DNA of 64,000 bases from assembly GCF_000003815.2 (NCBI RefSeq), contig NC_049984.1, positions 8,204,197 through 8,268,196 on the forward strand, given 5' to 3'. The stretch's first letter is position 1. The number at the start of each line of letters is the position of its first letter. Origin of the DNA: Branchiostoma floridae. Its lineage: Eukaryota; Chordata; Leptocardii; Amphioxiformes; Branchiostomatidae. Shown piece by piece: positions 6,357 through 56,400 of this stretch. The position numbers and the translations under genes are program-made. Under the pieces are notes generated by a model that had not been told where the DNA came from, did not search any database, and was given only the letters and a program-made list of their open reading frames with translations.

Positions 6357-6988
6357 CAGGGGTGCCTAAGCATTTGCACGAACCCTATGAAATTCGTACG
6401 AATATTACGTGATACACACGAATCACTATGCGAAAACGCACGAATATTATGAAATTCGCACAAATCACTATGCAAAAACGCACGAATATTACGAAATTCG
6501 CACGAATCACTATGTGATTCACAGGAACCTTTTGAGATTTGCACGATCCTTATGCGAAATTGCGCAACCACTGCCGGGATCACGTGACAGACGGAGCTGG
6601 ATTTTCAAGATGGCGGCTTCGATCGACGGCAACGGAAAATACGATGTAACATGCCGAAATGAAGCAAAACAGTAGCTCACAGACTATCAAATACATCTTT
6701 GAGACGGCAAATGTCCATTCCATGCCTTGAAATATAAATATCACGGGTAGAAACGATCAAAATCATGCCTCCTCCCGGCCGCCGTTTTCGCATAAGGATC
6801 GTGCAAATCTCATAAGGTTCGTGTGAATCACATAGTGATTCGTGCGAATTTCATAATATTCGTGCGTTTTTGCATAGTGATTCGTGCGAATTTCATAATA
6901 TTCGTGCGTTTTCGCATAGTGATTCGTGTGTATCACATAATATTCGTACGAATTTCATAGGGTTCGTGCAAATGCTTAGGCACCCCTG
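6357..6988. mobile_element. 632-bp non-autonomous DNA transposon with periodic 200-bp inverted arms
   Basis: The ends are perfect inverted copies for over 30 bp, starting CAGGGGTGCCTAAGCATTTG. The arms run about 200 bp each and consist of alternating CACGAATATTA and CACGAATCACTATG words with a period near 42 bp. A 5-bp direct repeat ATTGA flanks both ends (6352-6356 and 6989-6993). The 200-bp centre is unique sequence without a transposase. CAGGG termini suggest hAT relatives, but a 5-bp duplication is not the usual 8. Confidence 0.8.
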
Positions 6989-28900: not shown

Positions 28901-31900
28901 ATGGTTAAGTACCACTAGACACACAACAACAAAAATAAAAAGGACATGAGAGAACTCACTGTTTCATAGAATGCAGCCTGGTGTCGATGTTCTCCTGTTT
29001 GCCTCTCATCGACTTCACATCACTCAACACACGGGACATGTCCTCGTGTCTCAGCCTCAGGTCGTCCGCCTTCACCACAGAAACCTACAACAACACACTT
29101 CATTAGGGGGGTTCTCAGGATAACCCGTCTTGGGTTAGGGGAGGGAGAGCAATGAAGATAAATTAAGGGGTAAGTGTACTAGAAAGTGTCCTTTGTTGGT
29201 TTGTAAATACACTGGAGACTGGGACAGTTAGGGAAGTCCTCTTGGATGGGACATAAAGCCAGAGGTCCTGTGTTTCAGGACAGCCACACCTTCAGCATGT
29301 TAAAGAACCCTCCAAGCATGTATAATAGCCTGCTAACACCACAAGTCCCAAGCCTTTGCACAAAAAAAGCTGACACAAAAGGTACCTGTGGACAGCACAC
29401 CTGTCAACGCAGTACAGACAAACTACAACTATGAAGAAAAGTATAGCATTCACCGGCGCCCCAACCTTCCTCTTAATATGTTCCAGGAGATTCGGTTTCC
29501 CGCGAATGAAATTCTGGTGGCTGAATTCCATGTCGTCACGGTCTGCCTTCAGTCCGCCAGACTCGACATTCATCACCTTCCTGAATCCATCTGTGGAATA
29601 CAAGTTGAAGACATTGATACAAGAATGTGTATGTGGAGGGGTGTGTGAATCATATAAACTTCATCACATAAAAAATTAGGAAGCTTGTTTTTGGTTCATC
29701 ATGTCTTCTTAAATTGTACATCAGATGCATTGTATATTACATATACTAGTAATTGGAAAGCTTGTAATTCAAAACCCTTTACAGTGATACAGGCATCCCG
29801 TCTGTTATGATCAAACATTCATGGGTTCAGCACTGGGGCCACTATGTAGGTAAGTATCAAAAGAAAAGTGCTGAATTTTCTCTTGATCATACTCCAGTTG
29901 TTTCTTTTATGATAAGCATAATGTGCTATATCAATGGAAAGCTTGTATGTTTCCTTTGAAATGATACCTTGTTTGCCATGATCACGCTTTTGTACCATGC
30001 AACCATGGATGATTTGCCATGGGGCACAAGCGTATTTTTCATAGTAGTCTATTTAATCATGTCAATAGTAACAATAGTTCAGTTGGCACATATTGAAGTT
30101 CGTTCACACCAATTCAGAGCCTGCTTGGCAATATACCGTATTTGTATTGGCAGACTGGTTAAGTCAGCAGGTAAAAATTTAAATGTACAGGTAGTAGGAA
30201 ATTGTATCTAAATATAGTTTTGTAATAAAAAAAAGTGTTATATATGTACTATGAAAAAAGTATGGTACTATGAAAAAAGTGTGGTTCTATTTTATGCAAA
30301 TGAGTTCATAGTACCACAGGTTGGAGTATTGCAAAGTCAGTTAAGGTGTGTTACACCTGAAGGTGGCTTATGAGTGACTGACTTCATAGTACCACACTTT
30401 TTTCATAGTACCACACTTTTTTCATAGTATCACACTATTCTGCACTATGGGGATATAAACACAGTAATTGAATGGTTCTGGTTGGCTGAGGCCTGAGGGG
30501 TAATGGCCATGTTCTAAATGGGGAATCCCACACCCTAGTTTCACTTCCTCTTCTGTAAATTGATATATTTTTCTATCATCAACGAGATTTTTCCATTTGG
30601 CAGCTTTATTTTGTGTTGTAAGAAAACTGTGTCACTACTATATATTGAACAATGATGTTATTTCTTTTATTGGTACGTCTTATAGAAATATTTTGGTCAA
30701 AAACAATATAACAGTTGGCACGTATTCCAGGTTGTTCAACCTACTGCAGTGCTTTTTTGGCAAGGATTCAATCTGACCACAGTCTCCAGTGCAACTCTGC
30801 TTGGAAGGAGGCCATAATGTTTACAAAAATCTCTGTCTGGATAAGGCCACACTGAATCGATTATATGTAATGCAGCCAAATACTCAACAATTTTTGTTCA
30901 TTTCCCCACATAAGTTTTTTTTCTTGCCCAACTCTTTTCTATGCATGCTTGCATCAGTTTTGCCTTATGAAACAACACTCAGTCTGATACAACCTGTGTA
31001 AAGCTAATCTGGCATGTTTGGAAGGAAATCCTAATCAGATAATCTGCTCCAGATTACCTAGGCTCAAGGGACTGGTGTGTTAATGGAAGGTTTAGCAAGT
31101 CAAGGGCAAATGACTGTGCAGTGACAAAGACAGTGAGGACTCCTTCACCATTTTGTACTTTACAATTTTGTACTGCCTTAACAAGCCAACAAACAATTTT
31201 GTACCTCTGTTTGAGTTTTTGTGAATTTCTTAATGATGACTACAGTTTCTTTGGGACTTAATCAACTACTTACTACTAGTAGTACATACCAAATTTATAG
31301 TTACACACATACATCAAGACTATGAAGCACAAACAAATGCAACCAAAAACAGTACTGTTACCCAAGTCAGAAGTGATTTCCCGGAGGTAATATTAAAATA
31401 CTAACGTTACACTTGTATTTTCTCAGCTGACCTGTACCTAAAGTTTGTTCTCAATCTGAAAAACTTACACATGTTGAGTTGTCGAACAAAGCTGGCCATG
31501 TTGTTGTGTTTGAAGAACTTGGGCAGGACTTCTTTGGCAAACCTGGCCTGGTCATACACATGGAAGCTTGTTCCATTCTGGAAAAGGAAACAATGTTGTA
31601 CTTGAAGACCACAAAAATCTAATTTGCTTTTTCTTTCTTCACAATTAGCCTTGCAACAAACTCACAATTATGCATTTGTATTATAAGCATATCTTGAATT
31701 CTTGATACACGTATACAACAATGTGTTGTCCGTAACACAGATACTGCATTTTTCATACAATCATTATTACAACTTTTCCTGTGAGATCTACCAACACAAA
31801 TTGAGATATTTGCCACTGTAAAATTCAGTCTATGACAGCTGTTCTATGAGTATGTATGACAACAGAGATTTACCTCCTCAGGGAGGAAAGGGGCATGTTA

Positions 31901-44788: not shown

Positions 44789-46498
44789 TCACCCCTTCAG
44801 TACAGTGACACAAGCATGACCGTACAGACCCACTGGCATGGTCCCCACACGCAGAAGCGACTTGGTCTCCGGATCAAGGCACATGATATATGTGCTTCCA
44901 ACACCACGGTCTTTGCCTCCATAAAGGTAAAGCTTCCCTCCAATGACAGTCATCCCAGGCGACCTGTTGACGCCACATGTCAGTACTTCACTCCAGGATC
45001 CACCATCGTCCCCGGGCCTGAAACTATAAATGCCTTTGTTCACAGCCACGTAGATGTTACCATTGAGTACTGAAGCAGATATCTTACGACCCACTACAGG
45101 TACATCACTCTGTGGCTGCCACTGAGCATCTCCTGGGCTGAAACAGTACACCGTGGATTTTGGTTCGAGTTCATCATTGCATCCACCTATCACGTATATG
45201 CTGCCGTCTAACACCGCAACAGCATGCCGGCTCCTTGGCTCTGGAAGTGGAACTCCTTCACTCCATTTGTTCAGGTTTCTGTCGTAGACCTCTACAGAGG
45301 CTAGTTCAAATTTAGAACTATTGTCTCTGCCACCAATTGCATACACTTTACCTTGCAGTACTGCCAGCTTGTGATAATGCCGGGTCACGTTCAATGGAGC
45401 AAGATCTGCCCAGTTGTTCAGTTCTACATTATACAGCCACACATCACTGAAGCTGAGCCTCCCACAAAAGCCACCTGAAGATACAATAATGTCACTTGTT
45501 CCCAGAACAGCCACAGCAAATCCAACGTCTTTTCGCTTCATTTGTGTTAAATCGACCCAACATCTGCTTGGTGGCTCAGCCAAGTAGGTCATCATTATGG
45601 AGTTTGAGTAAACGGTTTGTCCAGGCAAATTTTTCTGTGTCCCTCCAATGATCACCACTGCCTCCTTCAGACCGCTGGCATGGCGGGGACGGGTGCGAGG
45701 CGACTGGACCTCTCCTGGGAAGAACTGGTACCTTCGAGTTTCCGCCACGATATCTGGGCAAGCCTTGCGTACTGCATTGTCGGTCTCCACTTTCTCCATG
45801 AAGTACATCTTGTCCATGAAAGGGAACCTGACCAGCTCCATCAGCTCTTTCATCTCCTTCCTCCTCCCCCTAGTGTCATGGTTGATCCATGCCATCACTG
45901 CCGTGTACACAGTCTCTTCCGAAGCATTGAGATCGTCAGACGAGATGAGAGTGACTAGCTGTTCCTTTCTCAGATGAAGGAACTCGGGTGTTTTGCAGAC
46001 TGCCTCAAACTCCTTCATGGCGCACGGCAGTGCCTTCTTCTCCAAGTCAGGTGCCAGCATGCCCCCAAGGGCTAACATCTTCAGACAGTTCCCTGCACAC
46101 AGACGTTCCGATAGGAACTTTGTGCACGCATCAAAAACAGGTTGGATCTGGAAGAAGTTGGCCCCCTCCAGGAGCTCCACAGCGTTGTCCTCCGTGATGG
46201 TGACTTTGGAAGTGTACGCGTAGTCGACGAGAAGCTGAAGAGTACTGGTACTGACTTCGTGAATTGTAACCTTGTGCTCCTTACTCTCGCGAAGCCCGTT
46301 ACAGAACATGGCCTGGAAATATCCGCTACAAGCAGCGAGGACGTTTCGGTGACACGGAATCTCTTTTCCGGCGACACAAAGGATGACGTCAACCAGCAGG
46401 CTGTTGGATCGCAGTCCTTCCAAGCCCTGCAAGAGGGCGCCTGCGTGTGCTTGGTGGCAGAAGTCGGATGATGCTGGTGATCTCTGTCCTGCTGCCAT
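44789..46498 (-). CDS. BTB-BACK-Kelch protein, copy 2 (KLHL family)
   Basis: 569 residues, intact, intronless coding region. It has the same BTB, BACK and Kelch layout as copy 1 and is nearly identical through BTB and BACK. It diverges strongly in the Kelch propeller (VYAIGGRDNSS, IYVIGGCNDE, LYLYGGKDRG), the substrate-binding part. The start is the ATG of MAAGQRSPASS; upstream in-frame codons fall in the 5' UTR intron (46510-46855). It is head-to-head with the first copy of BOP1 exon 1. No human KLHL name can be assigned with confidence. Confidence 0.9.
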   Translation of the reverse strand: MAAGQRSPASSDFCHQAHAGALLQGLEGLRSNSLLVDVILCVAGKEIPCHRNVLAACSGYFQAMFCNGLRESKEHKVTIHEVSTSTLQLLVDYAYTSKVTITEDNAVELLEGANFFQIQPVFDACTKFLSERLCAGNCLKMLALGGMLAPDLEKKALPCAMKEFEAVCKTPEFLHLRKEQLVTLISSDDLNASEETVYTAVMAWINHDTRGRRKEMKELMELVRFPFMDKMYFMEKVETDNAVRKACPDIVAETRRYQFFPGEVQSPRTRPRHASGLKEAVVIIGGTQKNLPGQTVYSNSIMMTYLAEPPSRCWVDLTQMKRKDVGFAVAVLGTSDIIVSSGGFCGRLSFSDVWLYNVELNNWADLAPLNVTRHYHKLAVLQGKVYAIGGRDNSSKFELASVEVYDRNLNKWSEGVPLPEPRSRHAVAVLDGSIYVIGGCNDELEPKSTVYCFSPGDAQWQPQSDVPVVGRKISASVLNGNIYVAVNKGIYSFRPGDDGGSWSEVLTCGVNRSPGMTVIGGKLYLYGGKDRGVGSTYIMCLDPETKSLLRVGTMPVGLYGHACVTVLKG

Positions 46499-46855
46499 CG
46501 TGCCAAATCCTGCAATACAAGGGAACAAGCTCATCAGTTTTATTTCACAAGAGAAGACTATCTTTTACAAAAGATTGAACACACAAAATCAAAGTTGGCA
46601 TAGAATAGATAACGTTACTGACAGGAACAATGCTGAAAGGAAGCACAGGAATACCCCTGAATAAGCAAAGAGGTTGAAAAGAGGCTTGCAAAAAGTGAAC
46701 AAACAATCAAAGCATTCTGGCAGGCATGGCCGGCTGGCCCATGGCTTAATACAAGCGAAATACTCTAGAATCAAGGAGCTCCCTGGCAGAATAAATTCCC
46801 CAGGCCATTTGTATAAGGTAACCCTTTGAAGCAAGTGAAAGAAAAGTTTCCTTAC

Positions 46856-47276
46856 CTTACTCAAGGAGGTTCCTCCGGTTTGTTTCACCTTGGTTTCAAG
46901 GAAGATAGAGCTTTTGGCCAGGACAGAAATTTGCACATCAAGAGACAAACGGCGGGAAAAACTCCAAGAAAGTCAAAGGTCAATATTGGACTATTCCAAA
47001 TGAATACCATAGGGGTAGCGATTGTTCAATGTTTATGTTTTTGACAATTATAAGACGACACCAGGGGACGTCAAAAATAACGCCAGGAACATAGCATTAT
47101 ATTTGTATGTGAAATAAACTGACAGATACTGCAGGTATCAATGCAGCAGAGGACGTTTTGAACCACCAGATGCCAGATGCCCTGCAGTGCAATTATCTAT
47201 CAATGCGCTAGGGGGCGTTTCTGACACGTCGAATGAATGCAACAATTTCTAACCTTTGACCCACACGGCAGGCAGC
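46856..47276. promoter_or_regulatory. Divergent promoter between Kelch gene 2 and BOP1 exon 1a
   Basis: About 420 bp separates the Kelch 5' UTR splice donor from the BOP1 fragment start codon. It contains GGCGGGAAAA near 46951 (an E2F-like TTTCCCGCC in reverse) and GAGGACGTTTTGAACCACCA near 47150. The same segment recurs at 50066-50464, and parts recur upstream of Kelch gene 1. Function is inferred from arrangement. Confidence 0.6.
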
Positions 47277-47529
47277 ATGGCTTCCAAGCGGAAAGTTGGA
47301 GAGGCAAAACTGGAAAAAGAGGAGGTTTGTGAGAATTCTGGAGATATTTAAACACCGTTGTTTCCAGTGGTATAACTGCATCGAGCGCAATACGCGATGG
47401 GTAGCATTTGTTTCGTTTTCGGTTCTCCGCAATTTGTCAATTTTAGTCTTGAACTGTTGGTGCAGCAGCGTGCAGTGCGGAACATGTGTCTCGTGTGGGG
47501 AGGGGGGCAGAATCCGGCAAAATATACAC

Positions 47530-47590
47530 CAAGAGGCCACGTCTAGCGAAATAATAGACGTTAAACGAGGACAACAACAACAACAACAAC
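47530..47590 (+). mobile_element. 61-bp retroposed fragment with a (CAA)n tail
   Basis: The insertion ends in repeated CAA and is flanked by the direct repeat AAATATACAC (47520-47529 and 47591-47600). The duplicate locus at 50700-50722 has a single AAATATACAC and no insert. This fits a strongly 5'-truncated non-LTR retrotransposon or SINE. Confidence 0.65.
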
Positions 47591-47671
47591 AAATATACAC
47601 GAACTGCTGTGTAGTCTTGCCTTCCATAATGGCGTTAACTATTGCTAAGAACAGTCTCATGTTCCTGCCAG

Positions 47672-47748
47672 TGTGCGATGATGTTTGAAATATCTGTCAA
47701 TCCTCTGAATATCTGTGATGACAATGCCATAGGCATATTACTGAGCAT
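47672..47748 (+). ncRNA. Box C/D snoRNA, copy a (in the BOP1 fragment intron)
   Basis: Box C ATGATGT (47678-47684), guide ATCTGTCAATCCT, box D' CTGA (47704-47707), box C' GTGATGA, box D CTGA (47741-47744). The terminal stem is weak here (GTGC/GCAT). The guide complements AGGATTGACAGAT of 18S rRNA. Confidence 0.7.
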
Positions 47749-47775
47749 CATTCATACTCATAGTATATGCAAAAG

Positions 47776-47836
47776 AAGAACTCTCTACTCTCTACTCTCT
47801 ACTCTATTATTTAGTAGAGAGTTGAGTAGAGTTCTT
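47776..47836 (+). other. Intronic hairpin AAGAACTCTCTACTC...
   Basis: The stretch from AAGAACTCTCTACTCTC to GAGTTGAGTAGAGTTCTT can form a stem of over 20 bp around TATTATTTAG. The duplicate at 53118-53172 keeps the fold with one CTCTA unit fewer. It could be a simple-repeat palindrome or a structured RNA. Confidence 0.45.
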
Positions 47837-48066
47837 GGGTTCGGTAGGAGTTAAACTCCAGTTGGAACCGCTCCTCTTGAACTCTTTATTTGAAAAATAT
47901 AAGATAAACTACTTTTAATTTGTTCATCTGTCCATCCTGGCCATCATAACAAACAAGCCTAGTTCTCAGGGTAACTCGATTGGTGAGAAGTGTTCTGCAA
48001 TATTTATGATAAACAATGTCTGCTCCTCCCCTAGTTGGACCTGTTTGTGGATGCTCCTCCTGATGT

Positions 48067-48100
<34 letters not shown>

Positions 48101-48416
48101 GATGGAGATACCTCTGACAGTGAGGAGTCTGTGTACTCTGGGTTAGGGGAGGAGCCAAGCAGCTCAGAGGAGGAGGAGGAGAACTCATCTGATGTAAGTG
48201 TGTCATGAAAAAAAAACATGTCTTGTATTATAGTCTTACTAAAAGGATTGCTAGGGATGCAAGGTAAAGGAGCAACAGAGTGGGTGATAGTGTTAATTTT
48301 TTTGCCTTTAAAAATTAAATAGTGTGGGGTTAAAAAGGGGTATTTTAAGGCTTTTGAGAAGGAAACTCACTGTCAGACAGGACACACGTGCAGTTACAGA
48401 CTATGGCTACATGTGA

Positions 48417-48512
48417 CAGGGTTGTCCCCAGAATTTTTTAGTATAGTGGAGGGGCTGGCAAAAATAACCCGCACCAACGCGTTGCGCTTTCATGAAAATG
48501 GGTTCATTTTGC
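48417..48512. mobile_element. Transposon-end fragment at the duplication junction
   Basis: It begins CAGGGTTGTCCCCAGAATTT, like the left end of the element at 58598 (CAGGGCTCTCCCCAGAAAAT). It separates BOP1-like sequence (to 48416) from Kelch-like sequence (from 48513), so the rearrangement breakpoint lies in or at this element. Confidence 0.55.
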
Positions 48513-49497
48513 ACCCATTGCAATGCCTCATGTGTGTTAAAGGAGCCCAATCTGAGCTTGATGCCTCAGCAGAGCAGGTCATTATCATGGAGTCTGTATC
48601 TATGTATAAAAATTCTTCACTTCCTGGTACCTCTCTCCCTCCGATGACTACCACTGCCTCCTTCAGACCGCTGGCACGGCGGGGACGGGTGCGTGGCGAC
48701 TGGACCTCTCCCGGGAACAACTGGTACTTTCGAGTTTCTGCCACAATGTCCAGGCAAGCCTTGCGTACTGCATTGTTGTTTTCTACGTTCTCTAAGAAGT
48801 ACAGCCTGTCCATGAATGGGAACCTAACCAGCTCCATCAGCTCTTTCATCTCCTTCCTCCTCCCCCTAGTGTCATGGTTGATCCACGCCATCACTGCTGT
48901 GTATACCGTTTCTTCTGAAGCATTGAGGTCATCAGACGAGATGAGAGTGATGAGCTGCTCCTTTCTCAGACAAAGGAACTCGGGTGTTTTGCTGACCGAA
49001 TCAAACTCCTTCATGGCGCAGGGCAGTGCCTTCTTCTCCAAGTCAGGTGCCAGCATGCCCCCAAGGGCTAACATTTTCAGACAGTTCTCTGCACACAGAT
49101 GTTTAGATAGGAACTTTGTGCACGCATCAAAAACAGGTTGGATTTGGAAGAAGTTGGCCCCCTCCAGGAGTTCTACAGCATTGTCCTTCGTGATGGTGAC
49201 TTTGGAAGTGTACGCATAGTCGACAAGAAGCTGCATGATGCTGGCACTAACTTCGTGAATGGTTACCTTGTGCTCCTTACTCTCGCGAAGCCCGTTACAG
49301 AACATGGCCTGGAAATATCCGCTACATGCGGCGAGGACGTTTCGGTGACACGGAATCTCTTTCCCGGCAACGCAAAGGATGACGTCTACCAGCAGGCTGT
49401 TGGATCGCAGTCCCTCCAAGCCCTGCAAGAGGGCTCCAGCGTGTGCTTGGTGGCAGAAGTCGGATGATGCTGGTGATCTCTGTCCTGCTGCCATCAT
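48490..49497 (-). pseudogene. Truncated BTB-BACK-Kelch gene, copy 3
   Basis: 335 residues: complete BTB and BACK domains, then a stop shortly after the first Kelch blade begins (THMRHCNG, then foreign CKMNPFS). The frame is open, so a BTB-BACK-only protein could be made. Such a product could bind CUL3 or dimerise with the full-length paralogues, but that is inference. The part from 48513 to about 48985 is almost identical to copy 1, while the rest and the promoter resemble copy 2. The 5' UTR intron (49507-50064) is conserved and carries a 212-bp insertion. Confidence 0.75.
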
Positions 49498-49554
49498 GCC
49501 CAAATCCTGCAGTACAAGGGAACAAACTGAGGTTTTATTTCACAAGATAAGACT

Positions 49555-49766
49555 GAGGGTCTGCATGGGGGGTCCCGACAATGATTTACGCTGAATTCGA
49601 GCTGAATTCAGAAGAACCCCCTACGTATTACACTAAATCAAGGAACGCAATTACGCTAAATTTGGTCGCCTCGCTACGAATTACATAGATAAGATGATTT
49701 TCCCTACGAATTACGGAAAATAAAATAGGCTGCCTACACCTTACGTAAAAGAGCATGCAGACCCTC
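49555..49766. mobile_element. 212-bp inverted-repeat element in the Kelch copy 3 UTR intron
   Basis: The ends are perfect 13-bp inverted repeats, GAGGGTCTGCATG and CATGCAGACCCTC. AAGACT flanks both sides (49549-49554 and 49767-49772). Kelch gene 2 shows the empty site with one AAGACT near 46553. The interior repeats TTACG words. Confidence 0.75.
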
Positions 49767-50065
49767 AAGACTGTCTTTAGTACAAAATATTAAACATGTA
49801 CAAAATCAAAATCGGCATAGAATAGATACTGCCACGAACAATGCTGAAATGAAGCACAGGAATACCCCTGACTAAGTGAACCAACAATCAAAGCATTTTG
49901 GCTCATGGCTTAACTACATGCAAAATACTAGTAAGTAGTATGCAGTTCTATTATCAAGGAACTCCTTGGCAGAATAAATTTCGTAGGCCATTTGTATTTC
50001 CACCCAGTTCAGATTTTGAAAATTTTGATACCCTTTGAAGCCAGCGAAAGTGAAATTTCCTTACC

Positions 50066-50464
50066 TTGCTCAAGGAGGTTCCTGCTTGTTGGTTTCAAGG
50101 AAGATAAAGCTTTTGGCCTGGACAGAAATTTGCACATCAAGAGACAAACGGCGGGAAAAACTCCAAGAAAGTCAAAGGTCAATATTGGATTATTCCAAAT
50201 CAATACCATAGGGGTAGCGATTGTTCAATGTTTATGTTTTTGACAATTAGAAGATGACACCAGGGGACGTCAAAAACAACGTCAGGAACATAGCATTTTA
50301 TTTGGAGGTGAAATAAACTGACAGATACTGCAAGTATCAATGCAGCAGAGGACGTTTTGAACCACCAGATGCCAGATGCCCTGCAGTGCAATGCGCTAGG
50401 GGGCGTTTCTGACACGTCGAATGAATGCAACAATTTCTAACCTTTGACCCACACAGCAGGCAGC
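50066..50464. promoter_or_regulatory. Divergent promoter between Kelch copy 3 and BOP1
   Basis: A near-copy of 46857-47276, with GGCGGGAAAA near 50150 and the shared GAGGACGTTTTGAACCACCA. It is the promoter of the complete BOP1 gene on one side and of the truncated Kelch gene on the other. Confidence 0.6.
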
Positions 50465-53400
50465 ATGGCTTCCAAGCGGAAAGTTGGTGAGGCAAAACTG
50501 GAAAAAGAGGAGGTTTGTGAGAATTCTGGAGATATTTAAACACCCTTGTTTCCAGTGGTATAACCGCATCGAGTGCATTACGCAATGGGTTGCATTTTTT
50601 TCGTCTTCGGTTCTCCGCAAGTTGTCAATTTTAGTCTTGAACTGTTGGTGCAGCAGCGTGCAGTGCGGAACATGTGTCTCGTGTGGGGAGGGGGGCAGAA
50701 TCCGGCAAAATATACACGAACTACCGAGGTCACGGGTAAATTTCTCATCACTCGGTATCCAGTGATGAAGTCGCGTCGTCACTGGCTTACCAGTGGGGAA
50801 TATTTATCGTCACTAGTTTTCCAGTGATGAGGAAACTTCAGCTGGTAAACCAGTGACGACAAATATTCAGTTTACTGAAGAAAAAGAAATCATCGTTTCA
50901 ATTTAGGGGATTTCAAAGTTAGCACTTAAAGTTATAACGCGAGTTAACCTTTATTCGTTCAGTTACCTTAATTCGTTTTTTCAAAAACAGGGAATCTACG
51001 GAGACACGGTAAATGCAACATCAGTAATAACCACAGGAATGCATAACCGAGAGACTTAAGTGTTCAGAATATTCATGAAAAGGCTCCGATGACCACGCAT
51101 TTGAAAACAGCGAGGTCAAAAACGTACCGTCCCTCATTGTAATAGCCTACCGCTCCGTGGGAGGATTGCGTCACCGTGTTGTTCGCCGGAATGGCAGAGA
51201 TCTATCACATTCGCTTCCAGTTCACAATTATCATGCACAAGACAACTCAATAAAGTTTGTGTTGCTAACCAGTAACTAGACTCAAAGTGTGATCAATTGT
51301 CGAAAACCGTCTCTTTGTTGCCACAACCTCCCGCACTTGTGGCGCACGATCGAGCGTCGCCATGTTTTTTCCCAGAAACCTACCGTTACGGTCGCAACCG
51401 CGGGAAAAAGATTGGATGACGACATTACAAGGTATTTATTAAACTTACCTTTAATAACTCACTAACTTGCCTTTTTCTCTTAGATCATTAAGCAGCCATC
51501 TATTAAACATTTTATGCACCACCAAGAATGGAAATGATATTGAACATCGACAAATTAATTGATTTTACTCTGGTCCCCTTTTTTTAAAATGTGAAAGTCC
51601 CAAGCCAGATCATGTAAACTGTTGCAAATACGGCCTTGAAGACGATACCAACTGTCTCAGTACGGGTATGGTACACCGATAACAAGATTTGCACTGCATA
51701 TTTGTCGACCACAAGTCTGACAGCAATGTTTTATATCATTTATTGTGGAATCTTTCGTTCTTTGATCCAGGGCATTGACAACAGCGGCATATCAGACTTC
51801 ACACCCCTTCATCTTTAGTGTTGTTGGCCGCCGGAATAGACCTTTGACACAAATATATCGGGTTACATTTTGCCGTGTGGAGGGTGCAAAACACTGTACA
51901 GATGGTTGTACTGCAAACTGATGATTACCCGCTTGGAAGTAGCCACAGCACGCCGTTCAAGTTGCAACGAAAGGTGCATAAGTTTCATGGAACGACCATG
52001 GCGCCAGGATCGATTTTACGTCACGGTCTACTGACCCAAAAACCTCATTTTTTTTACCAACGCGCTACTGCGTGCGACGGTAAATACTCAGCGGTAGTTG
52101 TCGGGATTTTTTTGTTGCCTGAATAAGTTTGTAATCTAGAGCACTCCATTCATGTCAAGAAAGGAACAATAGCTTCAGCATAAAGTAAGTAGCAGCGGAC
52201 AAACATAACGAGTCTCGTCAGAACGAATAAAGGTCACGCCCTCCGGGAGCGCCGTCGTTCTCAACGCAACGCGACGGTGTTTTCAAATTGAGACATTTTC
52301 ATATTAGCATGGTAGGAGAGAAAATATATCGTGGATGGGATGAATGGCAAAGGTAAACAACAATACCACCATGTTGAATACAGAAATTATGCTTTGTTTT
52401 TCTGCCAGATTGGAATAAGCTGACTCTTGGTAAAAAACGCAACGAATAAAGGTTAACTAGCGTTACTAGCGTCGCCTCTGCAAGTTCTCACACTCCCGAA
52501 CCAAATCTAACAGTAACACGGCTATGGCGACATGTGAATTAGGGTGTTTTTGTTGCACATCGAACTCAGCACTGGAACGTTCTAGTGCTATTAGAACGTG
52601 GTCACTGGAAGCCCAGTGCCGAAATAATTTCATCACTCGGTGTCCAGTGCCGAAGAATCACCGATCACTGGAAAATCCAGTGAAGAACCGGTGACCTCGA
52701 TGGTTCCGCACTCGATGCCCAGTGACGAATGACGTTCATCACTGGCCCCGAGTGACGAGCGGAGTTCATCGCTGGGTCCCGAGTGACGAGCAGAGTTCAT
52801 CACTGGAAACCGAGTGACGAGTCAAGGTTCATCACTGGAATTCCAGTGCCGAGAGAGCTTCATCACTGGAACAAAGTAATTCATCACTGGGAAACCAGTG
52901 ACGAACTTTCTTCGTCACTGGGCGTCCAGTGATGATGCCATTTTGAATATATTTTCGTCACTGGAAGCCCAGTGAGGAACCTGTGACCCGCGTAGCCTTG
53001 CCATTGTGCGATGATATTTGAAATATCTGTCAATCCTCTGAATATCTGTGATGTCAATGCCATAGGCATATTACTGAGCACACTACATCATTATTCATAC
53101 TCATAGTATATGCAAAAGAAGAACTCTCTACTCTCTACTCTATTATTTAGTAGAGAGTTGAGTAGAGTTCTTGGGTTGGGTAGGAGTTAAACTCCAGTTG
53201 GAACCGCTCCTCTTGAACTCTTTATTTGAAAAATATAAGATAAACTACTTTTAATTTGTTCATCTGTCCATCCTGGCCATCATACCAAACAAGCCTAGTT
53301 CTCAGGGTAACTCGATTGGTGAGAAGTGTTCTGCAATATTTATAATTAACAATGTCTGCTCCTCCCCTAGTTGGACCTGTTTGTGGATGCTCCTCCTGAT

Positions 53401-56400
53401 GATGATGATGATGATGATGGGGACACCTCTGACAGTGAGGAGTCGGTGTACTCTGGGTTAGAGGAGGAGCCAAGCAGCTCGGAGGAGGAGGAGGAGAACT
53501 CATCTGATGTAAGTGTGTCATTGAAAAGACAAGTCTTGCAATATAGTCTTACTCTTACCAAAAAAGATTGTTTGGGTTGCAAGGTATCAGAGCGACAGAG
53601 AGGGGAATGATGTTAATTTTTGCCTTTTTATGGCATGCATTAAAAAGGGGTATTCTAAGGCTTTTGTCAAAGAAATTTACTGTCGGACAGGTCACTCGTA
53701 CAGTTACAGACTATGGCCACATGTGACCTTGAAGCATCTCTAATCTATATGAATTTTAAGCTTGTTAGAGTAAACAGGGCATGTGGGTAAAGCGTGAGGT
53801 TACCTCACCCACAAATGTATAGATAACAGCTGACTTTGAACATTCTTTTGTGCTTCCGTGTGTGCGATGATGTATGATATATCTGTCAATCCTCTGACTT
53901 ACTGTGAAGTCAATGCCATAGGCTTGTACTGAGCACACTACTGCATCCATTGAAAGAACTTACTTCAGTTGTCTTGGAAACCCTTTTCAGATATAACGCT
54001 AGTTCACCTTTATCCGTTGGGTTACCCATGTACATGAATTAGCGTTAAGGATATTTATCAGTAAGTATTTCAATGAAGCAAACATTTGTCAAAGTTGTTA
54101 AGGTTTGTTCAATGTTTTCATCTGAAGAATGAAGACCATGGTACAGATGACACCACAGACACCCCAGGACCTACCACTGACAATACTGCAGGGTCTGCAG
54201 GTACTTCCTCCACGGAGCGCCTGGACAACAGGCCGCAGCCTGATGAGTACGAGTTCGACTCCTCGGATGAAGAGGTAAGATTTAACTTATAATTATGTTC
54301 AGAAAACAAGCGTATGCAGCTAAGTGGGTTCACGTAATGACCTGGCATTACGGTGGATGTGTAGAAATTCTAGCTCTCAAGTGAAACACAATTGGACCCA
54401 TGCCAAATCATATTTCCAATCTCAAAGTGACCTATTGTACCAACCCTGCAATATTCACATAACTGCAAATGCACACCAAAGCAAACAAACACACCCTCAG
54501 GCCTAGGTGACAATACCTTTGTTTTCATGGAGGTAACAAATGTATTTTTCATATTGGGCTGTTTGATGTAACTCTAACATCAGTTGCTATAGTCTTGCCA
54601 GTGTGCGATGATGTATGTAACATCTGTCAATCCTCTGACTGTCTGTGAAGTCAAAGCCATAGGCATGTACTGAGCACACAACTGCATCCAAAGGTAAAGG
54701 GAGGACTTCTTGTAAAGATAAGCAGTAGTGGATGTCCTTCGAAAGGAGACCCTCTATTATTTGCAAATCATGGCATTTTTAAACTTCAATGAAAGTTTGT
54801 CCGTGATTGTGATTTGTCAATATAAAGTTACATTCAACTTCTGTACACAAAAAGTAAAGCCCTAACCAGCAAGGTTTCAATCAGTTCTTTCCTCCTTCTC
54901 AAGTTGCTGTGACCCTTAGGCCTAAGCCTATGTCAGCACGCACTTAACTTTGTGTATGGTATTGCACTTTTCACACACAAAAAAAGAATTTTGAGCCCAT
55001 GTTTCCAAGAAATATTATGACAAAGAACTTGTTTCTGTGGCCTTTAGGACATCCGTAACACAGTAGGTAACATCCCCATGGAGTGGTACAATGACTACCC
55101 CCACATCGGGTACAACCTGGACGGGAAGAAGATCATGAAACCTGCCAAGGGTGACGAACTGGACGAGTTCTTAAACAAGATGGACAATCCCGATTACTGG
55201 TCAGTAATGTAGTAATCCTGATTACTGGTCAGTAATGTAGTAATCCTGATTACTGGTCAGTAATGTAGTAATCCCGATCACTGGTCAGTAATGTAGTAAG
55301 GCCTAGAAACGGAATGTTGTGTTTCTGGTAACCTGAATGACGTTAGCAAAAACCTGCCAATTCTTTTGGGTCTATCACTGGCAAAGGAAATAACATTTTG
55401 ATGTCTGGGTGATGAGTATGTTGTAGAATCGTTTCCTGTTCTCTTCATTTTTGTATTATTAAAAAATTGTGCTTTTACCATGTGCAGTAATGTTGAAAAT
55501 ACCTGATGCATTCCATTTTTACATTGTTAGACTGTATTTGGTGGATCACTTCAGTCAAAATGTAAAAGATGCTAGTTTATTTGACCTAAGGACTTAAATT
55601 ACATACCTTACTCTGTTACAGGAGAACAGTGAAAGATAAAACAACAGGAGAGGATGTTAAGCTAACAGATGAGGAACTGGATATCATCCAGCAGATCCAA
55701 AGGGGCAAATACCCAGACAAGGCCTACAATCCGTATGAGGTGAGTGACTTGTAGCATGTGTAGTCTAGCCTCTGGACCAAAAAGTCATGAATTAGACGTT
55801 GTGTCGCCCACCCAACATGCACATTATTGGAAAGAGTCACAGTCCTTAGGGTGAGAACCGTGAGACATTAAGCTATGGTCAGGTGCGCTTTCCAATAACA
55901 TGCATGTTGGGTGAGCAACAACAGCTGAGATTTGAACTCCCAACCTCTTGGTCCAGATGTGGGGTTTCTAACCACTGGATTACACTAGAGGCTTAACATT
56001 ATCAAACACGACTGTTGTACACAGAACCTCCAACTCTAAGTGTACAAATTCATTGCTATGGCTGTTATTTAGCAGGTGTGCGATGATGTATGTAACATCT
56101 GTCAATCCTCTGACTCATCTGTGATGTCACAGCCATAGGCATGTACTGAGCACACAACTGCATACAAAAGAAAAGTCAGATGTCATGTCTTCAGTTTCTG
56201 AGACCAAGGGGGATAAAGAATACAGTATTTTTTTCTTTTTCAGGCATACATACCCAGAAAACACACATTTTAGTGCAAACTGTGCCAAAAGTTCACAAAA
56301 TATTGTGTCCTCAAACAAAAGATTGTAGGAACACCAATTATGACTGGCATTCTTATTTTCAACAGAATCATACACAAAGTACAATCAAATTAACTAATAA

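Follow-up and report, generated by a model that had tools for sequence, protein, structure and literature searches.

What is an element that carries dense arrays of short two-fold symmetric sites at both ends doing in what appears to be an intron of BOP1 in the lancelet Branchiostoma floridae, and do those sites act as folded hairpins or as docking places for a protein? The element extends from about 50705/50721 to 53001 of the window, by which we mean the whole stretch of 64,000 nucleotides that was analyzed (C6:8204197-8268196 in the 513-Mb assembly of 431 contigs that we searched). It is a copy of a family of small non-autonomous DNA transposons. Beyond this, we consider it probable that the family moves by cut-and-paste, that it is most likely Mutator-like, and that its unequal arrays (about 4 and 13 sites) are most likely bound by a transposase. 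Of the two candidate roles offered by the first-pass annotation of this DNA, the one in which the arrays belong to a DNA transposon and serve a protein of two-fold symmetry gains support from the genomic copies, their 9-bp duplications and the constraint on the half-sites described below.

The arrays themselves are real. Using the site model TTCRTCACTGG-N3..6-CCAGTGAYGAA with a threshold of at least 16 of 22 positions, we counted 15 two-fold sites in the insert, three of them at its left end and 12 at its right, whereas 200 dinucleotide shuffles of the same sequence average 0.125 sites and never give more than 2; the remaining part of the 64-kb window holds five matches, with scores of 16–17. 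Two degenerate sites, centred at 50847.5 and 52578.5 and added by eye, bring the totals to 4 on the left and 13 on the right; an earlier count had been about sixteen, with four at the left and some twelve at the right. In the 14 clear sites arm identity is 79–81%, as against 31% for the 4-nt loops (n = 12) and 24–25% for the flanking 5-mers. The repeat unit is an 11-bp half-site, TTCRTCACTGG, mostly alternating with its reverse complement at a period of ~15.5 bp, which brings successive dyads near whole helical turns. In a looser half-site scan 21 of the 27 neighbour intervals measure 14–17 bp, the remaining six being 21, 28, 29, 33, 33 and 42 bp. The spacers had been described as irregular; the gaps between dyad centres are instead mostly 29–32.5 bp, and the three exceptions (42.5, 21.5 and 43 bp) all lie near whole turns at 10.5 bp per turn (p 0.019 under a simple null), which is suggestive of helical phasing. 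The array features of the window copy are as follows.

50744..50862, no strand assigned: left array, with sites starting at 50744, 50775 and 50806 and the degenerate site centred at 50847.5 (by eye).
52569..52979, no strand assigned: right array, opening with the degenerate site read by eye around the centre 52578.5 and continuing with sites that start at 52598, 52629, 52661, 52704, 52735, 52765, 52796, 52828, 52859 (a half site), 52880, 52911 and 52954.
52688..52699, minus strand: internal terminus-like core CCGGTGACCTCG, in the 42.5-bp gap that separates two groups of sites.

The reverse complement of this core, CGAGGTCACCGG, resembles the left end of the element, and the core and the right end form a direct repeat (90% over 20 nt).

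The family extends across the genome. One variant of the site, with a 5-nt loop, occurs at 49 places, with none for a reversed-pattern control, and the left terminus, allowing up to two mismatches, at 122 places, again with none for its control. We fetched 27 loci that cover 28 of the 48 other site places; both ends are present in 21 of the 28 core placements in these loci, and 15 of these 21 copies are flanked by a perfect 9-bp target duplication, with 8 of 9 positions agreeing in two. The termini of the other copies, GCAAAACTACCGAGGTCACGGG and CCCGTGACCCGCGTAGCCTTGC, adjoin the duplication, and the terminal inverted repeat, as read from the copy ends, is about 22–26 bp. From 21 copies we derived a majority consensus of 759 bp, with the ends GCAAAACTACC...GTAGCCTTGC, which the window copy matches at 97.6% identity; this set of copies differs from that used for the duplications in that L019 and L020 are out and the window copy and L013 are in, with inserts removed from four copies. 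Many copy lengths fall near 730, 760 and 790 bp, that is, in steps of ~31 bp. The window copy and those at L013, L014, L017 and L019 are longer from other inserted sequence, and the latter four were rejected as candidate autonomous elements, each being the same small element with an insert. The only frame of at least 100 amino acids among the longer copies, one of 276 amino acids at L014, has no PF10551 or PF20700 match and runs from the array into what we take to be the tail of a non-LTR (non-long-terminal-repeat) reverse transcriptase. A further copy on C10 spans 3,580 bp, its extent being set by its ends. In sum, the copies are numerous, have their ends and terminal inverted repeats in common, mostly carry target duplications and lack a transposase of their own, as is typical of non-autonomous, MITE-like (miniature inverted-repeat transposable element) DNA transposons. 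The site pattern has no match in viral contigs, and its only bacterial matches, L001 and L002, are near the estimated chance level. Two nested cases are also observed: at L017 one copy is inserted in the array of another, with the duplication CTCACTGGG, and at L032 a copy is inserted in the array of a sister family, with the duplication TCCAGTGCT.

The copies also define the limits of the element in the window.

50705..50736, plus strand: left terminus, comprising GCAAAA (50705-50710), an apparent 10-bp insertion (50711-50720) and CTACCGAGGTCACGGG (50721-50736).
50937..52463, no strand assigned: nested non-coding element of 1527 bp with its own terminal inverted repeat, ACGC[GT]AGTTAACCTTTATTCGTT.
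52980..53001, plus strand: right terminus CCTGTGACCCGCGTAGCCTTGC, matching the one that lies directly beside the 9-bp duplication in other copies.

Hence, GGTCAC, once taken for the boundary, lies inside the element, the true ends being some 11–13 bp further out. The first-pass annotation had said that its proposal would be refuted if GGTCAC proved not to be the boundary or if there were no copies elsewhere; the former is so to the letter, whereas copies do exist genome-wide. Nor is this a single 2.27-kb insertion: none of the other copies compared contains the 1.53 kb at 50937-52463, which are bounded by an inverted repeat of their own and flanked by a TA target duplication (50935-50936 and 52464-52465). 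They represent a separate nested element, the longest listed open reading frame of which has 83 amino acids. A stretch of similar sequence is seen at 53989-54026. Two assignments that had been drawn from the window copy alone, namely Zator or another class with 3-bp duplications and a Tc1/mariner-like class with TA duplications, were dropped in light of the 9-bp duplications of the other copies.

Could the sites instead act in folded form, as DNA or RNA hairpins, for instance when transcribed with BOP1 or as single-stranded substrates of transposition? They are after all inverted repeats with short loops, and standard pairs occupy 87.3% of the cells across 17 copies (those fetched with both ends and no long insert, together with L029 and leaving out L020, which is short, and L033, which is a duplicate). 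The first-pass annotation had further pointed to paired stem changes of CTCG with CGAG; yet in the window CTCG is never opposite CGAG, the three sites with CTCG in the left arm having CCAG in the right and the three with CGAG in the right arm having CTGG in the left. The arms of a site do not pair better with each other than with those of other sites: within-site pairing amounts to 116/154 in 14 window sites, where re-paired arms give 122.6 ± 2.5 (with 0.6% of re-pairings no higher than the observed value), and to 185/264 in the 24 sites of L034, a member of a related family considered below, as against 187.6 ± 4.2. Across the 17 copies none of the 98 pairs shows a change on both sides, a count of low power because shuffles expect just 0.3. 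More telling are several mismatches that have been retained throughout or almost throughout the copies, for example columns 39-55, unpaired in 17/17, and columns 670-677, in 16/16. Further, the window has no Rfam match at the gathering score, and the 9-bp duplications are marks of cut-and-paste movement. Thus, with no compensatory change in three tests, the earlier suggestion of selection on pairing finds no support; the copy comparisons favor protein binding over folding, and we regard a role as hairpins as very improbable.

The pattern of substitutions among the copies points to what has been kept. In 16 close copies compared with the consensus at non-CpG positions (L008, L018, L023, L032 and L033 being omitted as more diverged), divergence is 1.5% in the arms, 4.4% in the spacers, 7.7% in the loops, 2.9% in the termini and 3.0% in the rest; with all 21 copies, again at non-CpG positions, the corresponding values are 2.0%, 5.0%, 7.5%, 2.7% and 9.9%. 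The arm rate is lower than in all 411 circular shifts of the labels, and the bootstrap ratio of arms to loops is 0.14–0.26. Changes private to one copy are about evenly dense in arms, loops, spacers and the rest, at 0.15–0.20 per position. In contrast, positions variable in at least two copies are distributed unevenly: 7/265 in the arms, 12/55 in the loops, 10/71 in the spacers, 20/225 elsewhere, 3/34 in the termini and 0/21 in the lone half-site stretch. Shared and private positions accordingly number 7 and 42 in the arms and 22 and 22 in the loops plus spacers (Fisher, rough p 0.0003). We read the private changes as neutral decay after insertion and the shared ones as having passed through transposition. 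Because shared substitutions are rare in the half-sites while private ones are not, selection through transposition is suggested, with the half-sites being its object.

Related families carry a similar plan with altered letters. The 1391-bp L034 has the half-site TTCNGCACTRG and 24 sites, and is flanked by a perfect 9-bp duplication, TTTACTTTG; scoring of its ends covered 40/297 and 40/394 candidates. Its left end is found at 99% match in at least five other places, which indicates recent movement. At the shifted letter of the half-site (TCAC to GCAC) its arms have G in 42/48 cases, and a core similar to the terminus was seen by eye at the corresponding place of its right array. An L034-type element of 4,416 bp, L035, has about 3 kb of nested sequence and a duplication with 7 of 9 positions; its longest open reading frame started by ATG, GTG or TTG has 104 amino acids and its longest stop-to-stop frame 132. 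A third family, around L032 and its near-duplicate L033, has TTCAGCACTGG sites and the ends GCATGTATACAAAAGTAACGG and CCGTTACTTTTGTATATTTGC; the 9-bp duplication GTCTGGACG stands on both sides at L032, with the right-hand copy only at L033. The two loci have one duplication in common, as if a single locus had been duplicated.

A further possibility is that the arrays are functionless, minisatellite-like by-products of slippage. Part of the right array does score as a 31-bp tandem repeat, and many copies differ in length by just that ~31 bp. However, slippage would copy loops and spacers together with the arms, and these are unrelated between sites even though the arms are 79–81% alike; shared substitutions avoid the arms; and the odd gaps of the window copy (42.5, 21.5 and 43 bp) are mirrored as 43, 20 and 43 bp in the diverged L034, which also has gaps of 40, 43 and 51 bp. 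We therefore judge slippage without function to be decidedly unlikely.

As for the superfamily, target duplications measure 8 bp in hAT elements and 3 bp in EnSpm/CACTA and Zator, and are absent in Helitrons and Helentrons; with 9 bp, the lancelet family departs from each of these. Mutator-like elements have target duplications of 8–11 bp (PMC6446971), a range that includes the 9 bp seen here in 15/21 copies and also in L034. On the basis of this duplication and the layout, a Mutator-like affinity of the family is likely but unproven. Mutator-type domains are encoded in the genome, with 27 matches to PF10551 (MULE, for Mutator-like element) and 40 to PF20700 (Mutator), the best of the latter reaching 244.8 bits and several lying in open frames of more than 600 amino acids. 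These matches contrast with the statement in PMC6446971 that no MULE transposase was found in Branchiostoma floridae. The copy with a transposase that the first-pass annotation had hoped for was not found intact in our searches; at L021 the right end of a family copy has a decayed piece of PF20700 (E 1.4e-12) at a distance of 1.7 kb on its upstream side. The putative duplication at this locus is AACACTGTC.

We advance the following as the most likely mechanism. A transposase encoded elsewhere would bind the half-sites as dimers and load both ends cooperatively; it would then cut at the GCAA...TTGC termini, with insertion proceeding via a 9-bp staggered cut. The bound protein might alternatively be a host repressor, transcription factor or chromatin factor that the element exploits or evades, given that constrained two-fold half-sites would fit any dimeric DNA-binding protein and that binding by the transposase is a prediction. 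Nevertheless, the half-site changes family by family along with the termini, as expected if it co-evolves with the element's own transposase, and 10 of the 12 long-repeat Mutator-like families of Aedes have short subterminal repeats in their terminal repeats (PMC5225508); hence, we see a host protein as an unlikely ligand.

Several observations weigh against our preferred interpretation of a Mutator-like element with arrays bound by its transposase. The window copy itself has no visible 9-bp duplication, and 4 of the 21 copies with both ends score only 2–4 of 9; among these is L009, whose duplication (AAACGTCAC) becomes perfect on allowing for a terminal deletion of 1 bp. No copy with an intact transposase, that is, no autonomous element, was found in the genome. 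Measured from 127 end or site places among those listed, the nearest of the 27 PF10551 matches is 17 kb away and, after L021, the nearest of the 40 PF20700 matches 38 kb away; L021 is one degraded case, for which we estimate about 0.06 pairs within 1.7 kb by chance, and its left end was not found. On the side of the arrays, alternation is not strict, with a few neighbours of the same orientation in the looser half-site scan, and helical phasing draws on three off-modal gaps only. In the test of shared and private changes, arms differ from the unlabelled interior at only p 0.026; further, the copies are related by descent rather than independent, making all such p values rough.

How does this layout compare with known systems? 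En/Spm (CACTA) elements have many short sites for a transposase protein, in both orientations near both ends, much as here, together with a 3-bp duplication and CACTA termini in place of the 9 bp and GCAA ends of the lancelet element. The claim that no described family has this layout was too strong, in view of Muta1 (PMC5225508) and Rehavkus (PMC6446971). Muta1 of Aedes aegypti has nine copies of a 12-bp subterminal repeat with 3–4 bp spacers and duplications of 8 or 9 bp (PMC5225508); in it, as in the lancelet element, numerous short subterminal repeats come after a short terminal motif, here with a period of 15–16 bp, and there are non-autonomous derivatives that vary in repeat number. The Muta1 repeats, reported to be tandem, are contained in a terminal inverted repeat of 145 bp, whereas the lancelet half-sites mostly alternate, the ends are unequal (about 4 and 13 sites) and the terminal repeat is about 22–26 bp; the Muta1-type foldback arrangement of tandem subterminal repeats within long terminal inverted repeats is therefore not what we see. 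By its description, Muta1 is nonetheless the closest described relative among those compared. The Mutator-related Rehavkus, reported from insect/arthropod and annelid hosts, has a minisatellite before its 3' terminal repeat and 9-bp duplications (PMC6446971). It thus resembles the lancelet element in its duplications and in a repeat array just inside the 3' end; the fit is loose, the lancelet arrays being present at both ends and built of dyads rather than of a uniform minisatellite. A transposase with a PHD finger is a further mark of Rehavkus; our searches found no coding copy of the lancelet family. The hAT element Hermes has subterminal repeats, including one quasi-palindromic pair bound cooperatively by two transposase domains with exact phasing judged crucial, a likeness in kind; unlike the lancelet arrays its repeats are mostly non-palindromic, and extra transposase binding inside the ends was judged unlikely to matter in cells (PMC10368747). 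In our literature search no listed title or opening of an abstract mentioned this family or an alternating dyad array in a lancelet element, which is weak evidence of absence given its limited reach into subscription papers and Repbase.

The gene around the insertion has its own history of duplication, with two features of note.

50465..50513, plus strand: candidate first exon of BOP1, identified by eye, with the element in the following intron.
47517..47620, plus strand: what is left of both termini in the tandem sibling, GCAAAATATACAC...GAACTGCTGTGTAGTCTTGC, with a retroposon-like insert between them.

The BOP1NT domain is encoded at 55048-55200 (E 1.9e-14), confirming the domain for that later exon only. 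The 5' part of BOP1 is duplicated in tandem (46005-48417 and 49001-53727, 84–93% identity). The sibling has no arrays, while terminus-like letters are kept. We had considered this sibling (46.0-48.4 kb) as an empty site, a view dropped once the true ends made a gutted copy of the element the better reading; accordingly, we infer that it is such a copy. It also has the same 10 bp that we take to be an insertion at 50711-50720 of the window copy. The insert in the sibling, at 47530-47590, has (AAC)n at its end and two flanking copies of AAATATACAC. At 55186-55299 a 28-bp unit is present 4.1 times, each unit repeating the BOP1 exon end and an apparent splice donor, and an interspersed repeat of 80–95 bp has five copies in 9 kb (52993-53086, 47666-47747, 53861-53941, 54590-54682 and 56077-56158). 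Elsewhere in the window, a second transposon with inverted arrays at both ends, presumably hAT-like, occupies 6357-6988 (CAGGGGTGCC...GGCACCCCTG); its duplication is ATTGA, of 5 bp, and its arrays consist of TTCGCACGAAT-type palindromes in steps of about 20 bp. A short element at 30246-30436 has inverted arrays of TTCATAGTACCACAC-type units.

These findings bear on how transposon ends are recognized and evolve. With about a dozen constrained dyads at one end and four at the other, the lancelet family is a good test case for asymmetric end recognition, and the contrast between private and shared substitutions is a simple functional readout for non-coding transposon copies. The joint evolution of a protein and its many sites might be traced in related families whose half-site has shifted. 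Going further, we tentatively conjecture, with more doubt than conviction, that the ends of lancelet Mutator-like families load a chain of transposase on alternating faces of the helix through inverted half-sites every 1.5 turns, with another terminus-like core lying internally, ~300 bp in from the right end, and that from family to family one letter of the half-site is exchanged at almost every site in both ends, the layout being largely preserved. If true, these families would be a natural record of a joint change of specificity in a transposase and a dozen of its sites.
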